Source of the DNA: an uncultured Prevotellaceae bacterium
GTDB lineage: Bacteria > Bacteroidota > Bacteroidia > Bacteroidales > Muribaculaceae
Assembly (NCBI GenBank): GCA_900318065.1
Contig: ONIY01000021.1
Span: 1 to 34,642, forward strand
Direction: 5' to 3'
DNA length: 34,642 nt
The position numbers were made by a program, and so were the translations under genes. A model generated the notes under the pieces. That model did no database searches and was not told the DNA's origin. It saw only the letters and a program-made list of their open reading frames with translations. Of this stretch, positions 12,594-32,484 are shown one piece after another (position 1 is the first letter of the stretch; the number at the start of each line of letters is the position of its first letter).

Positions 12594-12677
12594 GGGAGAT
12601 CGAGGGTCGGGGATCGGGGATGGGGGGAGAGGGGAGAGGGAAGAGGGAAGTGGGAAGTGGGAAGTGGTGAGAGGGCG
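12594..12677. repeat. Twelve G-rich heptads in unbroken 7-nt register
   Basis: The segment divides exactly into 12 heptads that drift stepwise: CGGGGAT-like (units 1-5), then GAGGGAA (units 7-8), GTGGGAA (units 9-10), then GTGGTGA and GAGGGCG. The plus strand is nearly pure purine. No open frame is credible. It is the left arm of a longer quasi-palindrome that ends at 12757. Confidence 0.85.
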
Positions 12678-12721
12678 CTCGAATGCTCGAATGCTCGAAC
12701 GCTCGATTGCTCGAATGCTCG
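12678..12721. repeat. Octad array, five and a half units of CTCGAATG type
   Basis: Five 8-nt units (CTCGAATG, with variants ending AACG or ATTG) plus CTCG. All share a TCGA core, which is self-complementary. The same octad recurs at 15473-15544 and, more degenerate, at 31555-31626. Confidence 0.9.
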
Positions 12722-12757
12722 CCCCCCATCCCCGACCCTCGATCCCCGATCCCCGCG
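12722..12757. repeat. C-rich heptads complementary to the left arm
   Basis: Five heptads of CCCCGAT type. Read as reverse complement they use the same words as 12594-12628 (ATCGAGG, GTCGGGG, ATCGGGG, ATGGGGG) in permuted order, so the two arms can pair as a long imperfect hairpin around the octads. Confidence 0.8.
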
Positions 12758-12802
12758 CCGAAGGCGCCACTTAACACTTAACACTTTACCCTTAACACTT
12801 AA
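12755..12802 (+). repeat. 48-bp cassette, copy 1: GCGCC palindrome plus five CACTTAA heptads
   Basis: GCGCC-GAA-GGCGC (12755-12767) is followed by exactly five heptads (units 1, 2 and 5 CACTTAA; unit 3 CACTTTA; unit 4 CCCTTAA). The array ends 3 nt before the -33 box of the C69 gene promoter. Copies 2 and 3 are at 30189-30236 and 32437-32484. Confidence 0.85.
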
Positions 12803-12805
12803 AAT

Positions 12806-12837
12806 CTTGCTTGTTTTGTGAATTATTTCTACCTTTG
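12806..12837 (+). promoter_or_regulatory. Promoter of the C69 dipeptidase gene
   Basis: CTTG (12806-12809), a 20-nt spacer and a perfect TACCTTTG (12830-12837), 23 bases before the ATG. Confidence 0.8.
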
Positions 12838-12860
12838 CGGTAGATAAACTTTTAGACAAG

Positions 12861-14498
12861 ATGAAGAAGACATTTAAACTTATCACAGCGTTGTCACTGG
12901 CAGTGGCGATGCTTCCTGCGATAACAGCAACAGCTCAAGTAGATGAATCGACACCACAAGGGCGTGCGCGGCTGTCGTGCACCAGTATCATGGTGGGCAA
13001 GAACGCCAGCACCGACGGCTCGGTGATGACGTCGCACACCTGCGACTCGTGGTACCGCACCTGGATGACCATGACACCGGCACGCGACTACGAGCGCGAC
13101 ACGGTGACCGCCATCTACGAGGGCCGCATGCACACCCAGAGCGCAAGCGACAGCACCAAGATGTATGTCAAGGGCACTATTCCCCAGGTGCGCCACACCT
13201 ACCGCTACCTCGACACCGCCTATCCCTGCATGAACGAGAAGCAGGTGGCGATGGGCGAGACCACCATTGGCGGTCGCGACACGCTGCGCAACAAGGCGGG
13301 CATGTTCTACATCGAGGAACTCGAGCGCATAGCCCTGGAGCGCTGCTCCACAGCCCGCGACGCGATAGCCACCATGGGTCGCCTTGCCGAGAAATATGGC
13401 TACGCCGACAGTGGCGAGTGCCTCACCGTTGCCGACCCCAACGAGGTGTGGATTTTCGAGATCTTTGGCGCTGGTCCCAAGAAGGTGGGCGCCGTGTGGG
13501 CAGCCGTGCGCATCCCCGACGACGAGATAGCGGTGTCGGCCAACATCTCGCGCATTGGCACGCTCAACCTCAATGACAAGAAGAACTACATGGCGTCGGC
13601 CAACGTGAAAGAGGTTGCGCGCCAGCTCCAGCTGTGGGACGGCAAGGAGGAGTTCAACTTCTTCAAGGCCTACAGCGGCGAGAACTACTTCCATGAGAAG
13701 AAGAACTACAGCGTGCGCGAGCACTATATCATGAACGCGCTGGCACCATCGCTCAACCTTAGCGACACCGTGGCATGGCTGCCGCTGAGCGTGAAACCCG
13801 ACGCCAAGGTGAGCCCTGAGCAGGTGATGCAGCTGCTGGGCAGCTACTACGAGGGCAGCGAGAAGAACCTGAGCGGCCGTCACCTCATCCCCAACCCCAA
13901 GCGCAAAGACAAGAAGGGTAACCTGGTGGAGAACGAGCCCGACAGCATAGTGTCGCCCTTCAGCAACCCATGGATGCGCCCCGACGAGATAAACATGTAC
14001 TACGCCATGGGCGACTCGGCGATGAAGAACATTCGCACGGTGAGTGTGCCCTGGTGTGCCTACAGCACCGTGATCCAGCTGCGCTCGTGGCTCCCCAACG
14101 AGGTGGGCGGCGTGGCATGGGTGGCACTCGACAACCCTGGCGAGAGTCCTCGTTTCCCAATCTTTGCCGGCACCACACGGCTGCCCAAGCTGCTGCAGGT
14201 GTGCGGCCAGCACAGCGACCGCGAGGATGCGGCACTGTGGCACTACCGCAAGGCCAACCGCCTCGCCACCGTGCGCTGGGGCAAGTTCCGCAGCCTGCTC
14301 GAGCCACAGCGCGACTATTTCATGGCAAAGGGCCAGCGCGAGCTGCCTTTTGTTGTTCAGGCATGGCATAATACCAGCGACGCCAAGGATGCCGAGACAT
14401 TGCTCAATGGCTATGTCGCCGACTTCTTTGGCGCAACAATAGTTCGCTGGGATGAACTCGCCCGAGACCTGTGGCGACAGAACTGGACGGGGTTCTGA
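12861..14498 (+). CDS. Secreted C69-family dipeptidase
   Basis: 545 residues. A signal peptide (about 1-25, ending ATAQ) is followed by a short propeptide and the Ntn-hydrolase nucleophile C40, in the context RLSCTSIMVGKNAS-TDGS typical of peptidase family C69 (PepD/dipeptidase A). In the family the propeptide is removed so that Cys becomes the N-terminal catalytic residue; the enzyme then cuts dipeptides. The downstream elements GYADSGECLTVADPNEVWIFEIFG (about 187-210) and SANISRIG (about 227) are conserved family blocks. Length matches periplasmic Bacteroidota members. It is transcribed alone from the promoter at 12806-12837. It is flanked by GCGCC-palindrome elements in opposite orientation (12755 and 14504). 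Confidence 0.9.
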   Translation: MKKTFKLITALSLAVAMLPAITATAQVDESTPQGRARLSCTSIMVGKNASTDGSVMTSHTCDSWYRTWMTMTPARDYERDTVTAIYEGRMHTQSASDSTKMYVKGTIPQVRHTYRYLDTAYPCMNEKQVAMGETTIGGRDTLRNKAGMFYIEELERIALERCSTARDAIATMGRLAEKYGYADSGECLTVADPNEVWIFEIFGAGPKKVGAVWAAVRIPDDEIAVSANISRIGTLNLNDKKNYMASANVKEVARQLQLWDGKEEFNFFKAYSGENYFHEKKNYSVREHYIMNALAPSLNLSDTVAWLPLSVKPDAKVSPEQVMQLLGSYYEGSEKNLSGRHLIPNPKRKDKKGNLVENEPDSIVSPFSNPWMRPDEINMYYAMGDSAMKNIRTVSVPWCAYSTVIQLRSWLPNEVGGVAWVALDNPGESPRFPIFAGTTRLPKLLQVCGQHSDREDAALWHYRKANRLATVRWGKFRSLLEPQRDYFMAKGQRELPFVVQAWHNTSDAKDAETLLNGYVADFFGATIVRWDELARDLWRQNWTGF

Positions 14499-14503
14499 TT
14501 TAT

Positions 14504-14551
14504 GCGCCTGCGGCGCGAGGATTGGGGATCGGGGATTGGAAATCGGATTCA
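14504..14551. repeat. Inverted palindrome element with five G-rich heptads
   Basis: GCGCC-TGC-GGCGC (14504-14516) is followed by five heptads of GGGGATC/GGGGATT type (14517-14551). Read on the minus strand it gives C-rich heptads leading into the palindrome, the same order as 12730-12767, so it is an inverted relative of that element. It starts 5 bases after the C69 stop codon and may also act in termination. Confidence 0.75.
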
Positions 14552-14570
14552 CTTGACTCTCCCGTCTCAC

Positions 14571-14597
14571 TTGACTCACTTGACTCACCTGACTCAC
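14571..14597. repeat. Three 9-nt tandem units TTGACTCAC
   Basis: Two exact units and a third with C for the first T. A fourth, degenerate unit may precede them at 14553-14570. No gene is present in 14499-14766. Confidence 0.75.
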
Positions 14598-14604
14598 TGA
14601 AGTT

Positions 14605-14721
14605 CCTCTTCGAGGCACATTTCCTAATCGCTGTATATCACCAAGCTGCGAGGGTCTTCGACCCTCTTGCATGGTGTTACTAATGAATAGCTTCTTCGAA
14701 GCATTTGACCTCTTCGAGGTC
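14605..14721. repeat. Cluster of four short hairpins with a constant C-TTC-G centre
   Basis: CCTC-TTC-GAGG (14605-14615), GAGGGTC-TTC-GACCCTC (14650-14666), GCTTC-TTC-GAAGC (14690-14702) and GACCTC-TTC-GAGGTC (14707-14721). The stems differ but the centre is the same. They lie between convergent genes and may stop transcription or protect the 3' ends of either transcript. Confidence 0.65.
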
Positions 14722-14766
14722 GTCTCTCGGAGTTTTGCAAGGGACTTCTAACAAAATGAGGATTCA

Positions 14767-15333
14767 TTAGCGTTTTGTGATAGACTCTATTGTGGGGATG
14801 GTGTTGAGGAGGCTGGCGTGGAACTGGTAGGTGCCTGAGGCGGGGCGCACTACGCAGCGGGCGGTGATGAGCTGCGGCGGCGTGACGGCGGCGCTCACCA
14901 GGAGCAAGCGCGAGCCGTAGTCGATGACAGCGGGGTTACAGGCTCCGCCACGCGTCCACTTGTTGAGCTGCACCATTGCCTCGCGGGAGCTGGGCTCAAG
15001 GAATGTTGTCACGCTTCGCTCCCACCCATTGAGTCTCCATTCCACTGGCCGCACGCAGTACTGTGGCGGGGTGGCTTCTACTGTGCCGTCGATGCACGCC
15101 TGCAGCAGCACGTCGCTTTTCACGTCCTGCACTGGCAGCAGGTGGCACGGTGCGGTGTTGAGCAGCTGTGCATACCACTGCTTGATGTGGGTGGTGAGCA
15201 AAGCGTCGATGTCGACACCGTCGTCCCACTCCACGGCGCAGTCGCGGCGCGGAGTGTCGAGATGCATGAGCTGCTTCCACAAAGCCAGCATCTCACTTTC
15301 ATTAAGGTTGTAGAATTGATTGCTGTTTTCCAT
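14767..15333 (-). CDS. Hypothetical protein, 188 residues
   Basis: I do not recognise this gene. The frame is open up to 15453, but its first 40 codons run through the promoter and repeats. The ATG at 15333 (MENSNQFYNL), which has a leader of about 25 nt behind a consensus promoter, is the sensible start. The protein is soluble, with no signal peptide or membrane span, and has about five cysteines. The N-terminus looks helical (NESEMLALWKQL); the rest has mixed strands and a C-terminus rich in small and hydrophobic residues. Codon use is like its neighbours. It is transcribed alone. No function can be proposed. Confidence 0.65.
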   Translation of the reverse strand: MENSNQFYNLNESEMLALWKQLMHLDTPRRDCAVEWDDGVDIDALLTTHIKQWYAQLLNTAPCHLLPVQDVKSDVLLQACIDGTVEATPPQYCVRPVEWRLNGWERSVTTFLEPSSREAMVQLNKWTRGGACNPAVIDYGSRLLLVSAAVTPPQLITARCVVRPASGTYQFHASLLNTIPTIESITKR

Positions 15334-15364
15334 GATAATCCTTTTTATATTAAACAATGTGTGA

Positions 15365-15396
15365 CAAAGGTAAAAAGAGGCACATGGGAAAAGCAA
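15365..15396 (-). promoter_or_regulatory. Promoter of the 188-residue hypothetical gene
   Basis: On the minus strand TTG (15396-15394), a 21-nt spacer and a perfect TACCTTTG (15372-15365). It fixes the start of the gene at 15333. Confidence 0.8.
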
Positions 15397-15423
15397 GGTT
15401 AATTTGCTACGAGGGGGAACGAT

Positions 15424-15472
15424 GAAGGACGAAGGACGAAGGACGAAGGACAAAGGACAAAGGACAAAGGAC
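15424..15472. repeat. Seven heptads: four GAAGGAC then three AAAGGAC
   Basis: Perfect tandem heptads in one register, the purine arm of a composite array that ends at 15618. Read toward the minus-strand gene it is pyrimidine-rich and lies just upstream of the promoter. Confidence 0.95.
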
Positions 15473-15544
15473 GAACGCTCGATTGCTCGAATGCTCGAAC
15501 GCTCGATTGCTCGATTGCTCGAACGCTCGATTGCTCGATTGCTC
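15473..15544. repeat. Nine octads of GAnnGCTC type
   Basis: Nine exact 8-nt units varying only at positions 3-4, in the order AC, TT, AT, AC, TT, TT, AC, TT, TT. This gives a higher-order 24-nt period. The junction between units reads CTCGA, so each unit contributes a TCGA core. Confidence 0.95.
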
Positions 15545-15548
15545 GATT

Positions 15549-15618
15549 TCCCTTCCTTGATATCCTATCCTCTCCCCTCCATCCTCGATCCCCGAGCTTC
15601 GATTCCCGAGCTTCGATC
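15549..15618. repeat. Ten pyrimidine-rich heptads
   Basis: The segment divides into ten 7-nt units that drift from TCCCTTC through CTCCATC and CTCGATC to alternating CCCGAGC and TTCGATY. It is the right arm of the composite array. Confidence 0.8.
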
Positions 15619-15621
15619 CCC

Positions 15622-15665
15622 CGGAAAAAGAACAAGCGGCTGCATCGCTTTGATGCAACCGCTTG
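15622..15665 (-). terminator. Terminator of the first SusCD operon
   Basis: On the minus-strand RNA, arms 15665-15652 and 15646-15633 form 14 pairs (one U-G) around a 5-nt loop, followed by TTCTTTTTC. It sits 25 bases past the SusD stop codon. Confidence 0.85.
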
Positions 15666-15689
15666 AATTTTTAGATCTGAACTAGATGA

Positions 15690-17402
15690 TTACCATCCTG
15701 GGTTCTGGCCAATCTGTGGGTTGAGGTTAGCCTGATCGTTAGGAATTGGGAACAGGATGTACTTGTCGTCGTAGATGCGCTCTGCACCGTTGTTCTTGCA
15801 GTTGATGTAACCATCGGCGTCAACATTAATGTCGTCGATATCAACACCTTGTGCATCAAATCCACCAACATAAGCACCACGGCTCAGGTTGGGATAACGC
15901 TGAGTGTCGAGCTTGTCGAGCTGGTTCCAGCGCTGGAGTGAATAGTAACGGTCGTTCATGCAGTACATCATCTCAACGCGGCGCTCACGGCGAACCTCCC
16001 AGATGAGGTTGCTAACGCCCATGTTGTTGGCTGGGTCGGGCTCGGGATTAATCGAGAGACTTGGCATGCCAACGCGTGCGCGCAGCTTGTTGATAGAGTT
16101 GTCCAGGTCGCTCTGAGTGCAGTTACCCAGCTCGGCGCAAGCCTCGGCATAGTCGAGCAGAATCTCGGCATACCAGAAGATGGGCGCGTCGCTGTAGTTA
16201 CCGTTGGTAGACTGACGCTGCGAGTTGTCGTTTGAATACTTCTTGTTGTCAAAGAGCATCACACCGTAGCCAGTAGAGGCAGTAGACTGAGCACCACCAA
16301 AGCGTGCGTAACCGCAGCCAGGGAACTGAAGGATGCTATCAACGGCAGCAGTCAAACGTGGGTCGCGGTTAGCCAGCACATCAACGATGTTGATATACTT
16401 AGCAGCGCCATAGCCCGAATGGTCGTCGATCACAACAACTTTACCCTTGTCGCTCTTGTCCATAGAAGTGGTAGCCAGAGGCTTGCCATCGCGGAAGAGG
16501 TAGCTGTCGAAAGCGTCCTTGGTCATACCGTTAACCTGAGTAGAACCGCAGGTGTAGTCGATAGTACCATGACCCATGATGCCTTGCACATAGTGCTTGT
16601 AGAGGATCATCTCCTTGTTGCCCGAGAGGTCGTCGTCGTCGAAGTTAGACTTGTAGTCGCTATTGAGCTCAAAGTTGCCCGATGCCATGATTTGCTGGCA
16701 AGCGGCCTTAGCCTCGGTGAGATAGGTAGTGGCACGGCTTGCGTTCTTGGTAACATACTTGCTGTAGGTACCCTCGAAGAGGCAAATCTCGGCCTTCATA
16801 GCCAGAGCCACCCACTTGTTGTAGGCAACGCGCGAGTTGGCGTCGGCAGTAATGTTGGCAACAGCAAAGTTCAGGTCCTCAAGCACCTTGTCCATCACGT
16901 CGTTGCGTGGCTGGCGTGGCCCGTAGAGGATGTCCTCGTCGGTAGCGTCGAGTTCCTTGTCAACATAGTAGCAGTCGCCATAGGCACGCACCAGCTTGTA
17001 GTGCTGCCAAGCGCGGTAGAGGCGTCCAATGCCAATCCAGTTGTTCTTGGCGGCTTCGCTCATCGACTCAATTCCAGGAACGGCAGAGATCAGAGTGTTG
17101 GCACGGCGAATCTCCACATAGGGAGTGTTCCATGCGCCCGAGGAACCAGGCACCGAGGTGAAAGTCCAGTTGGTGATACCAGTAGAAGCCTGGTCATCGT
17201 TCAGAGTATTGAAATAGTAGTCGCCACTACCCGAGCCATAACCTGTGAAGGTGTTGTAGAAGTAGTTGGCAAACAGTTTCACGTTAGTTTCGCTGGTGAA
17301 GTAGTTCTGCTTGGTAAACTTATCGTATGGTTCGGTATCCAGCAAGTCGGAACAAGATGTGAACATCAAGCCTGTCACCAGTAATAATGCTAATTTTTTC
17401 AT
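15690..17402 (-). CDS. SusD/RagB-family nutrient-binding outer-membrane lipoprotein
   Basis: About 570 residues from the ATG at 17402; the frame is open to 17468, but the signal peptide MKKLALLLVTGLMFTSC starts at 17402. C17 is the lipidated cysteine, followed by SDLLDTEP, a classic SusD start. The middle and C-terminal parts fit the SusD/RagB fold, with helical TPR-like repeats (for example AWQHYKLVRAYGDCYYV near 145 and WEVRRERRVEMMYCMNDRYYSLQRWNQ near 490). The protein caps the SusC channel encoded just upstream (68-bp gap, same transcript) and captures a ligand, often a glycan. The substrate is unknown because no degrading enzyme lies nearby. Confidence 0.93.
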   Translation of the reverse strand: MKKLALLLVTGLMFTSCSDLLDTEPYDKFTKQNYFTSETNVKLFANYFYNTFTGYGSGSGDYYFNTLNDDQASTGITNWTFTSVPGSSGAWNTPYVEIRRANTLISAVPGIESMSEAAKNNWIGIGRLYRAWQHYKLVRAYGDCYYVDKELDATDEDILYGPRQPRNDVMDKVLEDLNFAVANITADANSRVAYNKWVALAMKAEICLFEGTYSKYVTKNASRATTYLTEAKAACQQIMASGNFELNSDYKSNFDDDDLSGNKEMILYKHYVQGIMGHGTIDYTCGSTQVNGMTKDAFDSYLFRDGKPLATTSMDKSDKGKVVVIDDHSGYGAAKYINIVDVLANRDPRLTAAVDSILQFPGCGYARFGGAQSTASTGYGVMLFDNKKYSNDNSQRQSTNGNYSDAPIFWYAEILLDYAEACAELGNCTQSDLDNSINKLRARVGMPSLSINPEPDPANNMGVSNLIWEVRRERRVEMMYCMNDRYYSLQRWNQLDKLDTQRYPNLSRGAYVGGFDAQGVDIDDINVDADGYINCKNNGAERIYDDKYILFPIPNDQANLNPQIGQNPGW

Positions 17403-17470
17403 ATTTTGCATAGTCATTTGAATGTTAATAAATAAATGCTGTTGATAATTCTTCAATTGTATAGTCAATA

Positions 17471-20400
17471 TTAGAAATCAACTTGAATACCAAACGAATA
17501 AGAACGCATGATTGGGTCGATACGTCCCCAAACGCCGTTACCGTAAGCACCCTCGCCATTGTTCATCTCGGGGTCAATACCGGTGCCATTGTTGTGGTTA
17601 ATGATATCGAATGCGTTGTTGATAGCAGCGTAGATGCGCAAGCGGTCGATGTAGATCTTGCGTGTGATGTCTCGAGGCAGAGTGTAACCCACGGTGATGT
17701 TCTTCATGCGCAGGTAGGCCATGTTAACGAGATATCTGGTCTGTGGATAGAAGTTGAACTTACCACCACTGAGGATGTTACCCGAAGCGTTACCTTGGCC
17801 AGCACCACCGTCCCACATGCGTGGGAAGTCGGCATCCTGACGAATCACGCCAGCGTTGAACTCAGCCTCGGTGATATAGTTGGTCTGGTTAGCATAGAGC
17901 GCATCGGCACCACGAGTCATAGGCATTACGAATGCCGACTGAGTCCAGAGTTTGCGCTTGCCCACGCCCTGCAGATAGATGTCGAGGTCAAATCCCTTCC
18001 AGTCGCCACCCAAGCGCAGTGAGTACTGGAAGCGTGGAGTGCTGTTACCAATCTTGATAAGGTCGCCATGATCCTCGGCAGTACCCTTACCCCAGTCAAT
18101 CACGCCATCACCGTTCTGGTCCACAAACTTGATGTCACCAGGGCCATAAACGAATCCGTTGCTCTCGAGCTTGGTTTGGCTGGCTACGTTATTATTATAG
18201 ATCCACTTGCCAGTTGTAGGATCCTTGCCTGTGAAGTCGCTGAAATCGAAGTAGCGGTCGGTCTCGAAGCCCCAGATCTCGCCATACTCCTTGCCCGAGT
18301 AGTTAGTGTTAACCAGGTTGTTGCTGTCCCACTCAGTAACCTTAGTCTTGTAGTCACTGATGTTGAAAGTAGCATAGAGGTTAACATCGCCAAAGCGACG
18401 GCGCCAGTCGAGAGTGAACTCCCAACCACGAGTGCGCAATGAGCCAGCGTTCTCCCATGCAGCCGAGGCACCCAGCACGTTAGGCATTGCCTTGCCAGGA
18501 GCGAGCATGTCCTTAGTGTCGCGCTGATACCAGTCGAACGAAACGTTGAACTGTCCGTTGAGGAAGCTCAGGTCGATACCCACGTTGGTGGTTTTGATCT
18601 TCTCCCATGTGAGCGACTTAGAAACCAGCTTAGGAGCCGTGAAGTAGTCGTAGCGCGAGTTGCCAGCACCCAGCCAGCTAACGTCGTTGGCTTTCTTAGC
18701 CATAGTCTCGAGGAACATGTCCTGACCAATCTCCTGGTTACCAATCACACCATAAGAAGCGCGAATCTTAGCATTGCTGATGATCTTGCGGATAGGATCC
18801 CAGAAAGCTTCCTCGCTGATGCGATAGCCCACCGAGAAAGATGGGAAGAATGCCCACTGGTCACCACTTGGGAACTTGCTCGAGCCATCGTAGCGTCCGT
18901 TCACCTCAAAGAGGTACTTGCCCTTGTAGTCGTAGTTGATACGTCCAAAGAAGCCAGCCGAGCCCTGGTGGGTGTGCTGGTGAGTGTAGGTGTAGTCCTC
19001 GTTGGTGAGCGCGAGCTCAGGCATGTTGATGTCTTGCAGGCCATGACGCTCGTAGTAGAGGTACTCATAGTCGGCCTTGTCAAGGTTGGCACCAGCCATA
19101 ATGTTGAGGTTGTGTGCCTCGTTGAATGTCTGGGCATAGTTGAAGTAGCCGTTGAACACCTGGTTTTGATAAACGCTGTGGTCGCTCTCAATCCATGTAG
19201 AAGTTACGAGCGTGCTGGTGGGCGCCTTAGGTGCCAGACCCCAAGTGTTGTAAAGAGTAACGGGCAGACCCACATCTTTATACTTGGTGTTCTTGCGGAT
19301 GAAGGTGTAGTCGCCGTTGAAGGTGAGACCATGCGAGAGGTCAATCTTCAAGAAGCCTGTCATACGCAGGTTGTTCATGTGGCGCATGCGGTCACCACCT
19401 TGCTTGCGGTAACCAATCATTGTGCGAGCGTCATACTCCTTGCCGTCGTCGGGATTCACGAAGTAGCCATAAGGGCCAAAGAACGAACCCCAGCGCCACA
19501 GGTACTGATAACCTGCGTTGCCATAGTTCTGGCGGTTAGAAACGCCATCATAGGTGCGGTCGTTGTAGGCGATGCGAGTACCAATGAGCAACCAGTCGGT
19601 AGCTTGAACCGAGAGGTTGGCAGCAGCGTTGTAGCGCTTGATCTTGTCGGGGTTGAAGTTGTGCAAGCCCTGACGCTGGTTGTAACCAAACGAAACATAG
19701 TAGTTGGCACGTCCTGAGTTACCAGTAACCGAGATGTTGTGGCTCTGTGCTGGAGCGTGCTTGCTGAACATGATGCCGCCCACGTCCCAGTTGGCATAGT
19801 AGCCATACTCGTCGTAGTCGTCACCGTAGACCATCTCGCGGTAGGGAGCCCTGGTGTCGCCGTGCTTGGCAATCCAGTTGTTGATACCAGCCTGGAACTC
19901 ATCGCTGTCCATGTACATACCGAAGAGCTCGGCAGCATTACCCTTGCGATAGTTGTCGTCGATAAGGGCCTGAACCTGAGTGGGCACGTTGGGATACTCA
20001 GGCAGAGTGGTAGCCTGGCTCCACGAGAAGTTGTTCTTGTAAGATACTCTCACGTTGTCCTTAACGTGACCGGTCTTGGTGGTGATCAATACAACACCAA
20101 ATGCGGCGCGAGTACCATAGATCGAGGTAGAGGCAGCATCCTTCAATACCGAGATTGTCTCGATATCGTTGGTGTTGAGGTAAGACAGGTTGTCGGTGGG
20201 CACACCGTCCACTACATAGAGAGGAGTAGATGTTCCGTCATTAGACAGAGTACCGATACCACGAATCACGAGCGATGCCTCAGAGTCGATGCGGCCATCG
20301 TTGTTAAGAATGGTAAGACCAGGCACAGTACCTTGCAGGGCCTTGCTCACGTCGGTCTCGCTCTTCGACTCGAGAGTCTTGGTAACGTCGACGTTGCTCA

Positions 20401-20785: not shown

Positions 20786-20793
20786 ACGCACAT
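20782..20793 (-). promoter_or_regulatory. Three-codon mini-ORF overlapping the SusC start
   Basis: On the minus strand ATGTGCGTATGA reads Met-Cys-Val-stop, and its TGA overlaps the SusC ATG (ATGA) in another frame. The otherwise almost identical leader of the second susC-like gene has AAG in place of this ATG, so it lacks the mini-ORF. Confidence 0.4.
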
Positions 20794-20915
20794 GTTTTTG
20801 TTAATGATTAAAACAATTTAATTATTTGGTATTAAAAAATTTATTTACTCTAATAATCAGCTTCTTTATACAACAATTTCAAAAAAAATAGTAATCTCGT
20901 TAAGTAAAAAACATG

Positions 20916-20946
20916 CAAATTTAATGATTCTTTCCAATTATTCAAA
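20916..20946 (-). promoter_or_regulatory. Promoter of the first SusCD operon
   Basis: On the minus strand TTTG (20946-20943), a 19-nt spacer and TAAATTTG (20923-20916), an exact consensus match. It leaves a leader of about 120 nt rich in A and T. Confidence 0.8.
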
Positions 20947-21285
20947 CTTTTTGCATAAAAAAGTTAACAAAAGTGCAATAATCATTACATAATAACATCA
21001 CCAGCCCGCTTTCACTGGAAACATCAAAGCACCACGTGCAAAGAAAAACAAGACTGTGCCAGTGCCAGGAAAAAACACGATATTGGGGCGCTGTTGACCT
21101 AATTGTTTTAAATTAATGTTTAGGATATTTAAATTACCCTCTCATAAAAATGAAACATTATGGCATGAATATACCCTCCACATTATATAATATGCAAAAA
21201 ACTGGGCAAAATGTGTTGTAGAATTATGTTATAAAACATATTTGTTAACTATTTATTACATTTTCAATTTTTTCTCACGAAAATA
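20947..21285. other. Central part of the divergent SusCD control region
   Basis: About 340 AT-rich bases with no gene between the two divergent promoters. The 11-bp palindrome GCAC-CAC-GTGC lies at 21029-21039, and its core ACCACGTGC occurs again at 21342-21350 inside the leader hairpin of the second operon. These could be sites for a shared regulator. Confidence 0.4.
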
Positions 21286-21317: not shown

Positions 21318-21321
21318 CATC

Positions 21322-24697: not shown

Positions 24698-24749
24698 TGC
24701 ACCCGTTACTTATTTCTATTAGTTAAGAACTTACTAAAACATTTAGAAT

Positions 24750-26681: not shown

Positions 26682-26731
26682 TCTCAAGCATGTGACAGTT
26701 CCTCCCATCTGGAGGAACAACACATAAACGC

Positions 26732-26775
26732 AAAAAGCGTGGCACGCTCACCCCGAGCGACGCCACGCTTTTTTT
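26732..26775 (+). terminator. Strong terminator of the second SusCD operon
   Basis: AAAAAGCGTGGC (26732-26743) pairs with 26762-26773. An inner CGCTC/GAGCG stem closes the loop, and seven T follow at 26769-26775. A smaller hairpin, CCTCC-ATCT-GGAGG-like (26701-26715), precedes it. Confidence 0.9.
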
Positions 26776-27000
26776 GTGACCTGAAGCGATTTACAAGAAA
26801 ACTATTAGTGCTGGAAATAATTGCGGTTTCCCCTGCAAATCATTGATTATATAGGCCAATTGTGCTGACCGCAAAATAAGAAGAGGGGACGGTAAAGCCC
26901 GTAGGGCTGATGCTAGTGCTCTTTTTTACTGGACAATGAATCACAAAAACCACACAACGAAGTGTTTTCATCTATAAAAATCATGTGATTGTAGATTTCA
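26776..27000. other. Intergenic region with a short GC hairpin and T run
   Basis: No gene. AGCCC-GTA-GGGCT (26896-26908) is followed 13 nt later by six T (26922-26927), possibly a weak backup terminator. Nothing else stands out. Confidence 0.4.
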
Positions 27001-27033
27001 TTTGGTGCGATTAAACTTATTGCAGTACTTTTG
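27001..27033 (+). promoter_or_regulatory. Promoter of the 27100 barrel gene
   Basis: TTTG (27001-27004), a 21-nt spacer and a perfect TACTTTTG (27026-27033). The leader is about 60 nt. Confidence 0.75.
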
Positions 27034-27099
27034 CGTCGTAATTATACCTGATCCTGTGATTAGGGCACACTATTATGAACCCCAAAAACATTATAGTAT

Positions 27100-30099
27100 A
27101 TGAGAGAAAACTTTTCAAGAATAATTATTGCGTTAATCCTGGTGGTGGCATGCAGCAGTGCCAAGGCTGCCGTGATTAACGGAATCCTGGTTGACGCCAC
27201 CGACACCACCGAGCTCATGCAGGCCAACGTGCAACTGCTCAAGGCCGACAAGGACAGCACCTATGTGATGGGCACCATCACCGACATGAACGGTGTGTTC
27301 AACCTGGAGAATGTGCCCGAGGGGCGCTACCTGGTGAAATGCAGCTACATAGGCTATGAACCCACCATCAAGCGCGTGAGCGTGGGTGCCGACGGCCGCG
27401 ATGTGAACCTGGGCATGATTTATGTGAGCCAGAACACCGTGGTGCTCAAGGAAACCGTGGTGATGGGCGTGAAGACCGCCATCACCGTCAAGGAGGACAC
27501 CATAGAATATAATGCCGACACCTACAAGACCCAGGCCAACGCCGTGGTCGAAGACCTCTTGAAGCGCATGCCTGGCGTGGAGGTGAGCAGCGACGGCAAG
27601 ATTACTGCCAACGGCAAGGAGGTGAAGAAAATCCTCATCGATGGCAAGGAGTTCTTTAGCGACGACCCCACCATGGCGTCGAAGAACATCCCCGCCGACA
27701 TGATCAACAAACTACAGGTTATTGACCGCAAGAGCGACCTGGCACGACTCACTGGCGTGGACGACGGCGAGGATGAGACAGTTATCAATCTCACCGTGAA
27801 AAAAGGCATGAACAACGGGTGGTTTGGCACCGTCACTGCAGGCTATGGCACCGACAAGCGCTACCTGGGCAATGTGATAGCCAACTACTTCAACAATGGC
27901 AACCAGTTCACCTTTACCGGCAATGCCAACAACACCAACAACGTGGGCTTCACCGACGGTGGCTCCTCGCGCTTCCGCCGCTTTGGTGGCGACCGAGGCA
28001 TCACCACGTCGCAGATGCTGGGATTCAACTTCAACGTGGGCTCGAAGGAAGACGACCACCTGCGCCTGGGTGGCGACCTCACCTACTCGCACACCAGCCG
28101 CGACACTCGCACCTCGACCAGCCGCCAGAACATCTTCACCGACTCTACCAGCTACCGCGACGCCTTGTCGGTAGCGCTCGACAAGACCCACAACATTCGC
28201 GGTAACTTCCGCCTCAAGTGGGAGATAGACTCGTGCAACACCATCGACTTCAGGCCCAACTTCCAGTTCAACTTCTCTCACAGCGAGAGCAGCGACACCT
28301 CTATGACGCGCGCCGGCGATGCCATGCGCACCCCCGTGAACCGCAGCCTGAGCTACTACGACAACCACGGCAAGAGCTACGAGTTTGGCGGCCGACTGAT
28401 CTACAACCACAAGTTCAAGTATCATCCTGGGCGCAGCTACAGCATGTTCCTCAACTATAACTACAGCAACATTGACGAGGACGGCAACACCTACACCAGC
28501 AACCGCTACTACCTCGTGGGCGAGGACGAGACCATCGACCAGGTGTATGACAACCTGCGCAAGACCAACCGAGTGAACGGCCGATTGAGCTGGACCGAAC
28601 CGCTGGGCGATGTGAAGAAAGCCAACTTCCTCACCCTGTCCTATAGCGCTAACTATAGCGTGACCAAGGCCAACAAGAGCGTCTACGACATCACGCGCTA
28701 TGCCAGCCAGGCTGTTCCGGTGCCACAACTGCGCATGAACAGCATCATGCTCGACGTTGCCACCAACACTACCCTGCGCAACATGATTGCCAGCACCTAT
28801 GGCACCTATGCCCTGCAAGACGCCAACCTGCTGAGCGAGATCATCGACATTGAGCTGGGCGACGAGATTGACCGCATCTTCAACGAAGAGCAGAGCAACG
28901 ACTTCCGCAACCAGTTCTTCAACCAGGACTTCCAGATTGGATACCAGAAGGTGACCAAGGAATACAACCTCAACCTGGGATTCTCGGTGACATCGGCAAT
29001 GTCGAAGAGCACCGACCTCATCAACAGCGCCCGCAACATTCCCGCGCGCTGGGCATGGGCAGTGGCACCCTTTGCACGCTTCCGTTACAAGTTCTCCAAG
29101 ACTCGCAACCTCGCCATCGACTACCGCATGCGCAGCAGCCAGCCCTCGATAGCACAGTTGCAACCCGTTGCCGACGTGAGCAACCCATTGAACATCGTGG
29201 TTGGTAACCCCGAGTTGAAGCCCACCTTCACCCATCGCATGAGCGTGCGCTTTAGCGACTTCAACCAGGACAACCAGCGCAGCATCATGGCAATGGTGCA
29301 CGCCAATGTGGAGCAAAACAGCATCATCAGCACCATCACCAACGACCCAACCACTGGTGGACAACTCACCACCTATGCCAACACCAATGGCGTGTGGGAC
29401 GCAATGGCAATGAACATGGTGAGCTTCCCATTCAGCTCCAGCAAGGCTTGGTACTTTAACAGCAACATCTTTGCGCGACTGTCGCAAACCAAGGGTTACA
29501 CCGACGGCGAGTACAACCGCAGCACTGGACTGAACCTCAACATCGCACCAGGTATTGCATACCGCACTGCCTACTTCGACCTCGAGCTTCGTCCACGCTA
29601 CGGCTACCAGCTCACTCACAACACTATGCAAAACAGCCGCGACCGCAACGTCCACACCTGGGGAGCAATGTTCAACGGCACCTACTCGGCACCATTTGGA
29701 CTGGTGATAAGCACCGACCTCAACTTCAGCTCCACCTCGGGCTACAGCACAGGCTACGACACCAAGCAGTGGATTTGGAACGGCTCTATCGCCTATCAGT
29801 TCCTCACGGGAAAGAAGGCATCGATACAGCTCTCGGTCTACGACATCCTGGGCCAGCAGAAGAACATCAGCCGCACCCAGACGGCAAGCTACATCCAGGA
29901 CGCCATCTACAACTCGCTGGGACGCTATGGCATGCTCACCTTCACCTACCGCTTCACCACCTTTGCCAAGGGGCAAGAGCCTAAGAGCAACAACAACGAG
30001 TTCCGTGGTCCTGGTGGTCCTGGCGGTCCACCTCCCGGTGGTGGCGGTCGCCCAGGCGGAGGCCGTGGCGGCTTTGGAGGCGGCAGGCCCCCATTCTAA
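27100..30099 (+). CDS. TonB-dependent-receptor-like outer-membrane barrel protein (OMP_b-brl_3 type) with Gly/Pro-rich tail
   Basis: 999 residues. Signal peptide (about 1-24, ending SSAKA), then a carboxypeptidase-regulatory-like domain (about 25-110, with GTITDMNGVFNLENVPEGRYLVKCSYIGYE near 57-86). The plug follows at about 115-235, with DLLKRMPGVEVSSDGKITANGKEVKKILIDGKEFF near 150-184, a stretch characteristic of these receptors. The barrel runs to about 967, where TFTYRFTTF looks like the last strand. A low-complexity tail of Gly, Pro and Arg (about 972-999) then ends in PPF. There is no SusD partner, so it is not a SusC pair member. It may import or assemble an unknown ligand. It is transcribed alone from the promoter at 27001-27033. 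Confidence 0.88.
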   Translation: MRENFSRIIIALILVVACSSAKAAVINGILVDATDTTELMQANVQLLKADKDSTYVMGTITDMNGVFNLENVPEGRYLVKCSYIGYEPTIKRVSVGADGRDVNLGMIYVSQNTVVLKETVVMGVKTAITVKEDTIEYNADTYKTQANAVVEDLLKRMPGVEVSSDGKITANGKEVKKILIDGKEFFSDDPTMASKNIPADMINKLQVIDRKSDLARLTGVDDGEDETVINLTVKKGMNNGWFGTVTAGYGTDKRYLGNVIANYFNNGNQFTFTGNANNTNNVGFTDGGSSRFRRFGGDRGITTSQMLGFNFNVGSKEDDHLRLGGDLTYSHTSRDTRTSTSRQNIFTDSTSYRDALSVALDKTHNIRGNFRLKWEIDSCNTIDFRPNFQFNFSHSESSDTSMTRAGDAMRTPVNRSLSYYDNHGKSYEFGGRLIYNHKFKYHPGRSYSMFLNYNYSNIDEDGNTYTSNRYYLVGEDETIDQVYDNLRKTNRVNGRLSWTEPLGDVKKANFLTLSYSANYSVTKANKSVYDITRYASQAVPVPQLRMNSIMLDVATNTTLRNMIASTYGTYALQDANLLSEIIDIELGDEIDRIFNEEQSNDFRNQFFNQDFQIGYQKVTKEYNLNLGFSVTSAMSKSTDLINSARNIPARWAWAVAPFARFRYKFSKTRNLAIDYRMRSSQPSIAQLQPVADVSNPLNIVVGNPELKPTFTHRMSVRFSDFNQDNQRSIMAMVHANVEQNSIISTITNDPTTGGQLTTYANTNGVWDAMAMNMVSFPFSSSKAWYFNSNIFARLSQTKGYTDGEYNRSTGLNLNIAPGIAYRTAYFDLELRPRYGYQLTHNTMQNSRDRNVHTWGAMFNGTYSAPFGLVISTDLNFSSTSGYSTGYDTKQWIWNGSIAYQFLTGKKASIQLSVYDILGQQKNISRTQTASYIQDAIYNSLGRYGMLTFTYRFTTFAKGQEPKSNNNEFRGPGGPGGPPPGGGGRPGGGRGGFGGGRPPF

Positions 30100-30111
30100 T
30101 TGCCAGTTTTT

Positions 30112-30151
30112 AGTAGAGCAGTTGAGTAGTAAAGTAGTAGAGTAGTATAAT
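30112..30151. repeat. Five octads of AGTARAGT type
   Basis: Five 8-nt units in one register (AGTAGAGC, AGTTGAGT, AGTAAAGT, AGTAGAGT, AGTATAAT), starting 13 bases after the barrel gene's stop codon. They resemble the TCGA octads with TA or TG in place of TC. Confidence 0.7.
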
Positions 30152-30188
30152 AGTTTTCTAAAAACTCGTTCCACGTACTACTTTCCAC

Positions 30189-30236
30189 GCGCTGCAGGCG
30201 CTACTTAACACTTAAAACTTTACACTTAAAACTTAC
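30189..30236 (+). repeat. 48-bp cassette, copy 2: GCGC palindrome plus five CACTTAA-like heptads
   Basis: GCGCTGCAGGCGC (30189-30201, one T-G wobble in the stem) is followed by exactly five heptads (30202-30236) of TACTTAA, CACTTAA or AACTTTA type. It lies upstream of the 30331 gene in the same orientation as copies 1 and 3. Confidence 0.85.
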
Positions 30237-30241
30237 TATTG

Positions 30242-30273
30242 GCGAGTTGTCACACACGATTATGACAACTCGC
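30242..30273. promoter_or_regulatory. Perfect 11-bp inverted repeat upstream of the 30331 gene
   Basis: GCGAGTTGTCA (30242-30252) and its exact complement (30263-30273) flank 10 nt. A -7-like TACTATTG (30234-30241) lies directly before it, so the repeat could be a 5'-terminal RNA hairpin or an operator. No good -33 box is visible. Confidence 0.5.
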
Positions 30274-30330
30274 TAAAATATTTGGCGGCTTATTGCGTTT
30301 TTAAAGAAAACATTAACCAATATAACTCTC

Positions 30331-31506
30331 ATGAGAAGACTGGTATTCATAATAATGTGTGCTGCGATTGCTATGACGGCGGCGGCAAGTAACGACGACA
30401 TCAAGCTGTGGAGCGATGGACCGCTTAACTGGAGCGACTTCCACCAGATGCTGCCTCCCACCTCGAGCGAGCCGTCACGGCTGGAGGTGGAACTGAGCGC
30501 TACCCCACTCGAGAGTGGCGACCGAGTGCGCCTGGAGGCGCGAGCCATCATGCATCGCAACAGCTCGGCAACAAGCGCCGCGCAAAGCACCCCCGAGCGC
30601 CTGCGCTACCACCAGCTGCAGTTTGACTTGCTGGAACTGATGCGCCGCAACTTGCAGCAAGAGATAAACAATGGCATCGACGGTGCCACGGTCGAGAAGC
30701 GCGTGAAATACTATCAAGACCTGTACCGCCAGCGCTCACGACAGATAGCCCAGGAGACACGCAACGGAAGCCTCGAGGCAGCCCTGAGCAGCTGGGAAGA
30801 CAATATCGAGAGTCAGCTCAGCAGCCTTGGCACCCCGCAAGTGCCTCAGGTCACCACTATGCAGGGATGTTATGGCGTGATAGCCGGTGTGGGTTATGAA
30901 TCGCCCACGGGCAAGCTGCGCGACAACTTTGGCGGCAGCGTGATGTTCCACGTGGGATTCACGGGAGGTTACAAGAATTTCAAGGCAAAAGCCCAGGTGG
31001 CATTTGGCCAGCCTTCCTACCGCAACGACAACATCTTCAACGTTGCCCCCGACAGTGAAGGCCGACCACTTCAGGGCAACAACTCGAGCAGTGCCACCCA
31101 CATCGATGCCAGCCTCCAGGTGGGATACACCGTGCTCACTGCGGGACGCCTGAGCATCACCCCTAATGTGGGAGCATTCTACAACCTCTACAAATGGGAT
31201 GTAGCCAACTACGCTTGGGACAAGGACGATGAAGGCCGCGACGTGCGCAACACCACCAGCATCGAGAATCGCAACCTGCATAACATCAGCTTCATAGCAT
31301 CGATAGACTTTGACATCAACCTCAACAGTGGCGTTACTAACACCTCGCTCACGGGCTCAAGCCACCGCGAACGCTGGACATCGTCGCTGCGCATCACACC
31401 ATGGGTGGCACACAGCAAGTTCAACAAGTGCGACCCCACAGTGAGCGGCATGATGGTGGGCATCAACGTGAGCTACCTGGGACTCGCCAGGCTACTGAGA
31501 ATGTGA
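30331..31506 (+). CDS. Exported protein, DUF922-like N-terminus without the protease motif, plus barrel-like C-terminus
   Basis: 391 residues. Signal peptide (about 1-19). The N-terminal half opens with LNWSDFHQMLPP (about 33-44) and has H-Q-L-Q-F-D-L-L-E-L in a long helix near 93-102. This resembles DUF922 secreted zinc-protease-like proteins (LxWxDF ... HExGHFDIxE). Here the zinc ligands corresponding to HExxH are replaced (Y-H-Q-L-Q), so it should be catalytically dead. The helix continues to about 150. The C-terminal half (about 180-391) has alternating strands (GVIAGVGYESPTG, SVMFHVGFTGGY, HIDASLQVGYTVL, SFIASIDFDINL) like an outer-membrane beta-barrel, with a last strand near GMMVGINVSYLGLARLLRM. 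The role is unknown. The DUF922 link is my inference from motif spacing. Confidence 0.6.
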   Translation: MRRLVFIIMCAAIAMTAAASNDDIKLWSDGPLNWSDFHQMLPPTSSEPSRLEVELSATPLESGDRVRLEARAIMHRNSSATSAAQSTPERLRYHQLQFDLLELMRRNLQQEINNGIDGATVEKRVKYYQDLYRQRSRQIAQETRNGSLEAALSSWEDNIESQLSSLGTPQVPQVTTMQGCYGVIAGVGYESPTGKLRDNFGGSVMFHVGFTGGYKNFKAKAQVAFGQPSYRNDNIFNVAPDSEGRPLQGNNSSSATHIDASLQVGYTVLTAGRLSITPNVGAFYNLYKWDVANYAWDKDDEGRDVRNTTSIENRNLHNISFIASIDFDINLNSGVTNTSLTGSSHRERWTSSLRITPWVAHSKFNKCDPTVSGMMVGINVSYLGLARLLRM

Positions 31507-31508
31507 CA

Positions 31509-31557
31509 ATTAAGTGTAAAGTATTAAGGGTAAAGTATTAAGGGTGAAGTGTTAAGT
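31509..31557. repeat. Seven purine-rich heptads starting 2 nt after a stop codon
   Basis: Units alternate ATTAAGG and GTAAAGT, with variants ATTAAGT, GTGAAGT and GTTAAGT. They are the reverse-complement sense of the CACTTAA heptads in the 48-bp cassettes. Left arm of the third composite array. Confidence 0.88.
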
Positions 31558-31626
31558 AGTGGAGCAGTAATGTAGTCGAGCTATCGAACGGTGGAGCGGT
31601 CGAACAGTCGAGCACTCGAGCAGAAG
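31555..31626. repeat. Nine degenerate octads of AGCnnTCG type
   Basis: Nine 8-nt units in register. The clearest are AGCTATCG, AGCGGTCG, AACAGTCG and AGCACTCG. Shifted by four, they read NNTCGAGC, the same word as the octads at 12678 and 15473 in reverse complement. Confidence 0.75.
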
Positions 31627-31634
31627 AGTGGCCA

Positions 31635-31697
31635 TCCTTTGTACTTTATCCTTCGTCCTTTGTACTTTGTCCTTCCACTTCTTTAGTCTTTTTACTT
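31635..31697. repeat. Nine pyrimidine-rich heptads of TCCTTTG type
   Basis: Units TCCTTTG, TACTTTA, TCCTTCG, TCCTTTG, TACTTTG and TCCTTCC, then three decayed units. They are the reverse complement of the GAAGGAC/AAAGGAC heptads at 15424-15472 and form the right arm of the array, ending 17 nt before the next promoter. Confidence 0.82.
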
Positions 31698-31714
31698 TTT
31701 TAAACTTTATTATT

Positions 31715-31745
31715 CTTGCAATTATAAAACTTTATTCTACATTTG
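31715..31745 (+). promoter_or_regulatory. Promoter of the DUF4294-queE operon
   Basis: CTTG (31715-31718), a 19-nt spacer and a perfect TACATTTG (31738-31745). The leader is about 27 nt. Confidence 0.75.
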
Positions 31746-31777
31746 CACGCTCAAAGTAATGTAAAGCCCCACTTGCG

Positions 31778-32416
31778 ATGAAGAACAGACTTTCCATATT
31801 GATAATTCTTGCCTTTGCAGCCCTGGCTCCTCAGTTTGCCATGGCGCAAAGCGGAGAGTCGTCACCACCGCTGCCATCGGTACTCAACAAGGTGGTGGCA
31901 AAGTGGGGATTTGCTGTTAATGCCAAGGGCGACACCATCTACAAGGTGATATTGAACAACATCACCGTCTACCCTCCCGAGCGATTCAAGAACAAAGAGG
32001 AGGAGGAGTTCTACTGGCGCACTGTGCGCGACGTGAAAAGGACTCTGCCCTATGCCAAGCTCATCAACGCCACACTGCAAGAGACCTATGAGTACCTGGA
32101 GACCTACCCTACCCAAAAGGAGAAGGAGGAATACCTGCAACGATTTGAGAAAGTGGTCTTTAACCAGTATAAGCCCGAGATGAAGAAACTCACGAAGAAT
32201 CAAGGCAAGACACTTATCAAACTCGTGAACCGCGAGACCAACCAGCGCAGTTACTACATCGTGAAAGCCTTCCTGGGCACTTTCAGGGCAGGATTCTGGC
32301 AGACGTTTGGCCGCTTCTTTGGCGTGAACATGCGAGAGGGCTACCACCCCGAGAGCAACAAGAACGATGCAATGTTAGAACGCATCTGCGTGCGCGTGGA
32401 GCAAGGATCAATTTAA
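31778..32416 (+). CDS. DUF4294 domain-containing exported protein
   Basis: 212 residues. Signal peptide ending AMA-Q near residue 24. The rest matches the DUF4294 family of Bacteroidota: GDTIYKVILNNITVYPP (about 51-67), the charged helix KNKEEEEFYWRTVRDVKRTLPYAKL (about 71-95), KLTKNQGKTLIKLVNRETNQ (about 135-154) and the C-terminal FRAGFWQTFGRFFGVNMREGY (about 169-189). The family's function is unknown; location is probably periplasmic. It shares a transcript with queE, which starts 70 bp downstream with no promoter between, although a functional link is not evident. Confidence 0.88.
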   Translation: MKNRLSILIILAFAALAPQFAMAQSGESSPPLPSVLNKVVAKWGFAVNAKGDTIYKVILNNITVYPPERFKNKEEEEFYWRTVRDVKRTLPYAKLINATLQETYEYLETYPTQKEKEEYLQRFEKVVFNQYKPEMKKLTKNQGKTLIKLVNRETNQRSYYIVKAFLGTFRAGFWQTFGRFFGVNMREGYHPESNKNDAMLERICVRVEQGSI

Positions 32417-32436
32417 TTTGTAACTCCTAATCCCCC

Positions 32437-32484
32437 GCGCCACAGGCGCTACTTACCACTTAAAACTTAACACTTAACACTTAA
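32437..32484 (+). repeat. 48-bp cassette, copy 3, ending 2 nt before the queE ATG
   Basis: GCGCC-ACA-GGCGC (32437-32449) is followed by exactly five heptads (TACTTAC, CACTTAA, AACTTAA, CACTTAA, CACTTAA). AA and then the queE start codon follow, so the heptads fill the ribosome-binding position. CCCC before the palindrome recalls the C-rich heptads that precede copy 1. Confidence 0.88.

Follow-up and report, generated by a model that had tools for sequence, protein, structure and literature searches.

How can a stretch of DNA keep a fixed period of 7 or 8 nt while its letters keep changing? The question is raised by six intergenic spacers on contig ONIY01000021.1 (C16) of an uncultured Prevotellaceae bacterium from the gut; the complete contig, i.e. 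34,642 nt, is the window analysed here, and the genome (G000) comprises 2,985,043 nt in 97 contigs and is 93.85 % complete. A first-pass annotation, made from the letters of the window, had described these spacers as tandem heptads and octads whose words drift step by step. The arrays are real, and we read the spacers, with somewhat more confidence than doubt, as nearly neutral composite extragenic repeats that grew in register and were spread by copying between spacers.

Lag-identity tests, run per spacer with 500 dinucleotide shuffles as background, gave clear periods in the spacers 12594-12802 (lag 7, z=10.7; lag 8, z=6.8), 15424-15618 (lag 7, z=5.7; lag 8, z=7.3), 31509-31697 (lag 21, z=6.0; lag 8, z=5.3; lag 7, z=3.5) and 32450-32484 (lag 7, z=5.5), and a weak signal in 30112-30236 (lag 8, z=2.7; lag 7, z=2.2). 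Spacer 14504-14597, where lag 9 (z=5.0) exceeds lag 7 (z=3.6) and lag 8 is at z=-1.6, is chiefly a 9-nt array, TCACTTGAC. Tandem Repeats Finder (TRF) recovers the same units in these spacers. Therefore, the division into units of 7 or 8 nt holds for five of the six spacers, if weakly for 30112-30236, and fails for 14504-14597. The octad words named in the first-pass annotation, NNTCGAGC and AGTAGAGY, are present; its degenerate word NAAGKRN, said to underlie most heptads, is real but a minority, since, of the 847 nt that the six spacers span, 224 lie in runs of at least two such units, and words fitting it (TTAAGTG and RAAGGAC) account for 43 of 167 heptad blocks in a 681-kb sample of G000, which also served for coverage, block classification and the printing of junction and linker copies.

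An excess at lags 7 and 8 in other intergenic regions, which had been proposed as a check of the arrays, was found. Among noncoding runs with a lag identity of at least 75 % in 368 kb, 79 had period 7, 23 period 8, 55 period 14, 11 period 16, 45 period 21, 30 period 28 and 20 period 35, compared with zero to four at each other period from 2 to 40 (zero to two at periods 2 to 13 besides 7 and 8). In the whole genome there are 430 occurrences of AAG-N4 carried on to four AAGs, compared with 103 when the pattern is reversed, and 206 of TCGA-N4-TCGA-N4-TCGA, for which the control gave none. The arrays are confined to gaps between genes, as had been claimed: with the better in-house gene caller used for the 681-kb set, period-7 runs cover 5.88 % of noncoding and 0.082 % of coding DNA; for period 8 these values are 1.27 % and 0.026 %, and no further period between 5 and 12 reaches 0.5 % of noncoding DNA. 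With the crude open reading frame (ORF) caller used for the 368-kb spectrum, 25 of 104 period-7 runs lay in ‘coding’ ORFs, some of which are spurious ORFs overlying arrays. Among spacers of at least 60 nt in the larger sample, arrays were present in 69 of 192 between tandem, 14 of 54 between convergent and 8 of 61 between divergent genes (tandem vs divergent, p=0.0007; convergent vs divergent, p=0.099), and are therefore rarer between divergent genes. No side preference was seen in the 69 tandem spacers, with 41 arrays closer to the stop and 27 closer to the start codon (p=0.45).

The period is written in around ten words. Of 42 array clusters printed, two were runs of N; the remaining 40, and 200 blocks classified by word in the 681 kb, showed the heptads TTAAGTG (T), RAAGGAC (D), GGATCGG (R), GTGGAAC (W), GAGAGGG (S), TCAGTTA (P), GTTTATG (M) and GTGCATT and the octads TCGAGCAN (O) and AGTAGAGT (Q). 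Blocks are joined in chains, 52 of 106 having at least two and 30 at least three blocks, and their order is not random: eight of 28 listed oriented pairs are more frequent than in any of 1000 permutations of labels and strands, among them P+Q+ (10 observed, 0.5 expected, maximum 4), D+O- (6, 0.3 and 3) and Q+S- (5, 0.3 and 3), although one of the eight, N+N+, is a same-word pair. Two composite types recur, i.e. type A, (TCAGTTA)n - (AGTAGAGT)n - inverted (GAGAGGG)n - linker - inverted (GTTTATG)n, and type B, (TTAAGTG)n - hairpin GCGCCTGCGGCGC - (GTGGAAC or GGATCGG)n - (TCGAGCAN)n - inverted GGATCGG or RAAGGAC, to which, entirely or in portions, the window spacers starting at 12594, 30112, 31509 and 32450 belong.

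The junction of block T and its hairpin, AAGTNGCGCCTGCGGCGCG, occurs, with two mismatches allowed, 84 times in G000 (reversed control, 0) and zero to three times in each of 60 relatives (control, zero to one); the type A linker occurs 15 times in G000 (reversed control, 0) and zero to one time per relative, i.e. once among the 60; 19 junction and 11 linker copies were printed. Considering the 84 junctions here and zero to three per relative, the composites are a lineage-specific dispersed family, restricted to G000 among the 61 genomes. With such non-periodic sequences present in 84 and 15 copies, slippage of a single unit per locus is an incomplete account, as the first-pass annotation had suspected.

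Some other designs do not fit these composites. A long hairpin of inverted arms fits 12594-12802, which folds at -98.3 compared with -83.9 (standard deviation 4.6) for 7-nt-block shuffles, i.e. 3.1 standard deviations more stably. As a general design it fails, because the P-Q-S’-M’ composite has no self-complementary arms by its words, and because, apart from that spacer, only 30112-30236 (2.4) exceeds 2 standard deviations, the other four window spacers staying below. A clustered regularly interspaced short palindromic repeat (CRISPR) array would have repeats of 24-48 nt with unique spacers, whereas the units here are contiguous and of 7-8 nt. Phage carriage was likewise set aside: the junction pattern is found in three contigs of the viral collection, where the 140 nt around the match are GC-rich and free of heptads, and the type A linker pattern has no match in that collection. 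Rfam at gathering thresholds gave no match in the window.

If the composites are dispersed copies, what do the units themselves tell? Each word consists of core letters that vary little (core positions mostly 85-100 % conserved) and one to three free letters, as in TCAGT[T/A][A/T/G], GTTTAT[G/A/T], [G/A]AGAGG[G/T/A], [A/G]AAG[G/T]AC and TCGA[G/A]C[A/G]N. Since consensus-based block detection can favour some unit variants, the unit tests were repeated with detection by core letters only; a tenth family, GTGCATT, with two arrays, was dropped. The stepwise change of words proposed in the first-pass annotation was not borne out, as neighbouring units were no more alike at their free letters than within-array shuffles in all nine families (p 0.16 to 1.0), the variation falling at set free positions, and no progressive drift along arrays was found. 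Similarity within and between arrays was 0.70/0.78 for T, 0.41/0.37 for D, 0.26/0.18 for R, 0.37/0.37 for W, 0.38/0.24 for S, 0.23/0.17 for P, 0.34/0.43 for M, 0.19/0.09 for O and 0.15/0.12 for Q, compared with 0.64/0.20 in a simulation of fast slippage at separate loci and 0.30/0.28 when loci exchange units; slippage equal to mutation gave 0.28/0.20 and slower slippage 0.20/0.20. Therefore, the units behave nearly like draws from one common pool, and neighbours no more alike than shuffled, together with loci nearly as alike as single arrays, argue against both stepwise drift and separate growth dominated by slippage.

These patterns would be accounted for if a small number of composite types had arisen in this lineage from tandem blocks in 7- or 8-nt register, small hairpins and linkers, and had then been copied into many spacers. 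Within the register, blocks would acquire, drop and swap units through replication slippage; template switching or gene conversion may pass units between like arrays at different loci, so that every array would sample one genome-wide variant pool. Purifying selection would exclude the arrays from genes and make them rarer between divergent genes. The period, the confinement to noncoding DNA, the order of the blocks, the junctions at many loci and their restriction to G000, and the near-exchangeable units are observed; copying by template switching or gene conversion, and the neutrality of the arrays, we infer.

Several observations weigh against this reading. There is modest homogeneity within arrays in four of the nine families (R, S, P and O; p 0.003-0.032) and, therefore, local slippage acts too; the unit statistics would likewise be consistent with slippage at or below the rate of mutation. 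TCAGTTA arrays alternate every second unit, i.e. with a 14-nt step (lag-2 p=0.001), and their free positions are linked (p=9e-6), as are, weakly, those of RAAGGAC (p=0.044), while in the remaining families with at least two free positions these are mutually independent; a lag-2 excess of GGATCGG had p=0.005 with consensus detection and p=0.20 with core-only detection. In TTAAGTG arrays the hairpin-adjacent unit is common to the copies (0.83 pairwise agreement, 12 loci) and little beyond it is, unit order being hardly common to copies otherwise (for T, p=0.0098, to which the first unit contributes most; for M, p=0.26; for P, with four loci, p=0.02), and therefore whole-array copying is not directly visible. 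No fixed element ends were noticed on reading the printed linker and junction copies, which involved no formal test for miniature inverted-repeat transposable elements, nor were element ends or target-site duplications identified, and, with one genome per species, no copy was caught moving.

Relatives differ at the same spacers. In the spacer 5' of the DUF4294 gene, the start-proximal part is alike in 12 distinct spacers (our own and 11 related ones, identical spacers having been dropped), whereas the remainder differs, with CTCTCNC-type heptads in several, TTAAGTG in one and no clear array in some, the composite being present only in G000. In the spacer 30100-30330, the array 30112-30236 sits between the stop codon (30097-30099) and a terminator-like hairpin; of 13 related loci tried, four had no match to the upstream gene and nine were recovered. 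Between stop codon and hairpin, two of these have around 20 nt, one has two ACAGTTC units and another around seven variable units of the ACAGTTC kind (L084 and L089 being the two ACAGTTC relatives). Conservation of promoter and hairpin at both spacers was judged by eye.

Across seven other Bacteroidales, sampled at 48-200 kb per genome, period 7 leads in four, i.e. G011, G010, G058 and G060 (in the last with 125 vs 110 per Mb for period 10), with words that are partly other; in G030 it lies just under period 10 (55 vs 60), in G052 period 8 leads and in G043 no period-7 run was found. Words such as AACACTT and AATGCAC are common to some members of the genus. Pattern counts in relatives are a poor measure, with the reversed control sometimes outnumbering the query, because that control is itself a heptad word in several genomes. 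G060, which belongs to another Bacteroidales family, harbours two copies of a composite of its own (L190-L193), in which a shared linker is surrounded by GTTGATG, AATCTGA and TTTATCC-like blocks. Given this and period 7 elsewhere, this kind of architecture may extend further than the particular words, few clusters per genome having been read.

The lead of period 7 in four other Bacteroidales with other words would also be expected if each spacer had grown on its own by slippage and point mutation, with a polymerase preferring steps of 7-8 nt and words common by convergence or old descent. Two ACAGTTC units in one relative and, by eye, a drifting series of around seven in another are what growth from a seed would give, and both the homogeneity in four families and the simulated 0.28/0.20 point the same way. 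That one non-periodic junction recurs 84 times and that many loci agree in block order, however, contradicts this as a complete account, and the excess of similarity between neighbours is absent in all nine families, so that we consider it unlikely. We would give an equally small chance to the proposal that the hairpins of the composites are repetitive extragenic palindromic (REP) elements moved by a Y1 transposase, i.e. a REP-associated tyrosine transposase (RAYT, TnpA-REP), with the heptads as passengers. G000 has six Y1_Tnp matches, and a RAYT-like ORF (L245/L246; G000:C9:19321-20301) is flanked to either side by the hairpin AGGTCGCAAGGCRCCGCCTTGCGA, at C9:19199 and C9:20545, in the same orientation and with heptads alongside; this hairpin is dispersed, with 19 copies in G000 and three in the 60 relatives, and a similar one follows three of the 11 printed linker copies. 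In this the family is akin to known REP/RAYT systems (PMC6006769, PMC3733652), but the commonest composite hairpin is another one, and none of the 20 RAYT-like loci examined in relatives lies among heptads. The flanks read around L243, L244 and L246 did not show that commonest hairpin, GCGCCTGCGGCGC, and the letter before it varies, the preceding sequence being AAGTT, AAGTA or AAGTG, so that it has no fixed GTAG tag, in contrast to a REP palindrome with its fixed tag tetranucleotide (GTAG or CGTC). Of 26 RAYT-like loci, 23 were examined (20 of relatives, three own), and only L246 has a period-7 array within 450 nt, so that RAYT was set aside as a general maker of heptads; G060, although rich in heptads, has no match to the L245/L246 RAYT. 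Considering the 20 loci of relatives and two own ones without heptads, RAYT is at most a partial answer. The L245/L246 gene with its AGGTCGCAAGGCRCCGCCTTGCGA hairpins resembles a REP-RAYT pair, and the two further RAYT-like genes, L243 and L244, are flanked by short repeats of the CTGTGCCACGGC type (period around 24) and the ACAAGCCACACT type (period around 12).

Cores mostly 85-100 % conserved beside one to three free positions per word would also be expected of selected sites, i.e. if the arrays were binding sites or structures of mRNA 3' ends, as would the two window spacers that fold more stably than their block shuffles. We regard this as improbable: four of the six spacers do not fold in this way, there are around ten unrelated cores in one genome, and related species lack the composite at the same spacer, even though the promoter-side part or the terminator-like hairpin is kept. 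Moreover, conservation along the type A linker is as uneven as that of the words (0 to 0.6 divergence per position, 20 copies) and, therefore, core and free letters are no necessary sign of selection; in a young family, old polymorphism may have left this pattern. Selection on helical spacing, suggested in the first-pass annotation, is not supported, as neither 7 nor 8 nt is the helical repeat of DNA. The same annotation had suggested templated, error-prone addition; a telomerase-like polymerase that copies certain template positions with low fidelity would be one such agent. Restricted alphabets of the free letters, which keep to fixed positions, near-random array order and, in most families, independent free positions are consistent with it, and the variable telomere repeats of some ciliates look alike, having free letters at fixed positions in near-random order. 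No candidate was found, however: the two RVT_1 matches of G000 are free of heptads in the 500 nt printed on each side, and the position of the arrays inside multi-word composites with hairpins and the linked free positions of TCAGTTA also speak against it, which makes it very improbable. In a diversity-generating retroelement, variation occurs only at adenines of the template repeat. The arrays are not targets of such an element, since nearly invariant core adenines (positions 2 and 3 of D, 98 % and 93 %) stand beside variable non-adenine positions, and an origin from such an element or from a retron was set aside on the unit variation and the two heptad-free RVT_1 loci. One of these, L274 (G000:C29:52239-52835), has a 435-codon frame encoding a reverse transcriptase; upstream lies a GCGAATGCGAATG-rich stretch, possibly a template repeat, and the locus resembles a diversity-generating retroelement. 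The other, L273 (G000:C20:67187-67864), also a reverse transcriptase, is matched best in PADLOC by RT-Protease_XI and further reverse transcriptase models of defence systems. More broadly, units might be laid down and not merely duplicated, by a cellular process that writes 7- or 8-nt units with a core set by a template or recognition step and near-independent free letters. We think this quite improbable as well; if true, written units would account for neighbours no more alike than shuffled and for loci nearly as alike.

Intergenic heptameric repeats with variable letters are already published (PMC4692102, PMC4679880), and the first-pass annotation, which knew of no named element with this form, is thus not right on this point. 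In Xanthomonas and Nostoc, GGGAATC and GGGGAYT repeats are mostly intergenic; the (GGGANTN)n units of Xanthomonas are heterogeneous, with positions 1-4 and 6 conserved, 7-8 % lie between divergent genes, and pairs occur in convergent (inverted) orientation (PMC4692102). Most of these repeats occupy the gap between one and the same pair of genes in the two sister species, close to the upstream ORF, but vary extensively in length and sequence (PMC4692102). The arrays of G000 share the 7-nt unit, the core and variable positions, the rarity between divergent genes and the inverted pairs, but have no side preference, and where that paper describes one word family per genome, there are here around ten words and blocks of 8 and 9 nt, ordered with hairpins and linkers (PMC4692102). 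TAACTGA direct repeats are known from Beggiatoaceae, cyanobacteria and five Bacteroidetes, some of which have other heptamer repeats in the same spacers (PMC4679880). TAACTGA is the complement of the G000 word TCAGTTA and, like it, forms intergenic heptamer arrays; in the Beggiatoaceae genome, related heptamers are rare as repeats and most arrays lie just upstream of start codons, whereas TCAGTTA has two variable positions and is one block of a composite (PMC4679880). In general, the arrays of G000 agree with heptameric intergenic repeats in having a tandem 7-nt unit above chance, dispersed between genes and rare in them, with core and variable positions, and depart from them in that an array region has not one unit length and word family but blocks of 7, 8 and 9 nt in ordered chains.

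Short tandem repeats of the heptanucleotide kind found in Calothrix go by the name STRR. One Calothrix genome has three tandem heptanucleotides, a 2007 survey of long simple sequence repeats of 5-11 nt found heptanucleotides to be the commonest class in most genomes, and a published idea from a 2007 study is that 7 nt matches the stretch held by DNA polymerase (all cited in PMC4692102 and PMC4679880). For ordered multi-word composites, no description was found in the open-licence literature, judged from titles and the starts of abstracts. The small dispersed repeats described in Nostoc by Elhai in 2008 are reportedly small hairpin repeats often embedded in tandem heptamers; the hairpins of G000 are 13-24 nt long and of other sequence, with no mobility shown. 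Therefore, heptameric intergenic repeats as such are known, and what is unusual here is the variety and order of the blocks.

Table 1. Blocks and hairpins in the six window spacers (positions in C16)
Feature	Position	Strand	Evidence
Heptad blocks R (GGATCGG), then S / GGGAAGT	12596..12675	+	TRF units, word classification
Octad block O (TCGAGCAN; GCTCGAAT on +)	12677..12721	-	TRF units, word classification, TCGA-N4 pattern
Inverted heptad block R (CCCCGAT); near inverted repeat of left R block	12723..12755	-	Reading, TRF, classification, fold vs shuffles
Hairpin H, GCGCCGAAGGCGC, joined to block T	12755..12767	.	Junction copy C16:12754-12772, 1 mismatch
Heptad block T (CACTTAA on +), upstream of C69 peptidase gene at 12861	12768..12802	-	TRF, classification
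Hairpin GCGCCTGCGGCGC, directly after C69 gene stop codon	14504..14516	.	Reading of sequence
R-like 14-nt pair, then 9-nt array TCACTTGAC (neither 7 nor 8)	14519..14598	.	TRF, lag test
Heptad block D (GAAGGAC/AAAGGAC)	15424..15475	+	TRF, pattern count
Octad block O, higher-order period 24 nt	15477..15548	-	TRF, TCGA-N4 pattern
R-type block, period 14 nt (TCGATCCCCGAGCT)	15585..15621	-	TRF
Octad block Q (AGTAGAGT)	30112..30151	+	TRF, classification
Heptad block W (GTTCCAC on +), 21 nt	30168..30188	-	Classification; ends by reading
Hairpin H, GCGCTGCAGGCGC	30189..30201	.	Junction copy C16:30188-30206, 1 mismatch
Heptad block T	30202..30236	-	TRF, classification
Terminator-like hairpin GCGAGTTGTCA...TGACAACTCGC	30242..30273	.	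Like form by eye in 8/9 related spacers
Heptad block T	31510..31558	+	TRF, classification
Octad block O / AGTCGAGC	31574..31623	+	TRF, classification
Heptad block D (CCTTTGT/ACTTTGT on +)	31634..31675	-	TRF, classification
Hairpin H, GCGCCACAGGCGC	32437..32449	.	Junction copy C16:32436-32454, 1 mismatch
Heptad block T, end 2 nt short of ATG at 32487	32451..32484	-	Reading, TRF

The genes around these spacers are ordinary. A Pfam scan of ten window proteins placed a Cthe_2159/dockerin protein, the C69 peptidase, a SusD-family protein and the DUF4294 protein among the spacer neighbours. Elsewhere in the window, 6085-7605 encodes a GH3-family protein with three GH3 Pfam domains, a family best known from plant auxin conjugation, and a serpin is encoded at 7788-9062 (Pfam E 4.3e-82). 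For the DUF4294 protein, the best named matches come from metagenome-assembled genomes (MAGs) of uncultured Muribaculaceae, ‘Prevotellaceae’ and Bacteroidales, many of them derived from the rumen. One public record titled Lachnospiraceae (L119) holds a DUF4294 relative resembling those of Bacteroidales MAGs and is possibly a mislabelled MAG.

For the bacterial preference for 7-nt units, reported in 2007 (cited in PMC4692102), the cause is still a matter of hypothesis, and with a genome in which many loci carry some ten words, each built of a fixed core and free positions, the birth of units, their exchange between loci and the turnover of words become countable in strains. Such arrays can also mislead the prediction of ORFs, promoters and terminators, as the spurious ORFs put on them by the crude caller illustrate. 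Finally, the composites suggest that simple repeats can act as a dispersed family confined to one lineage.

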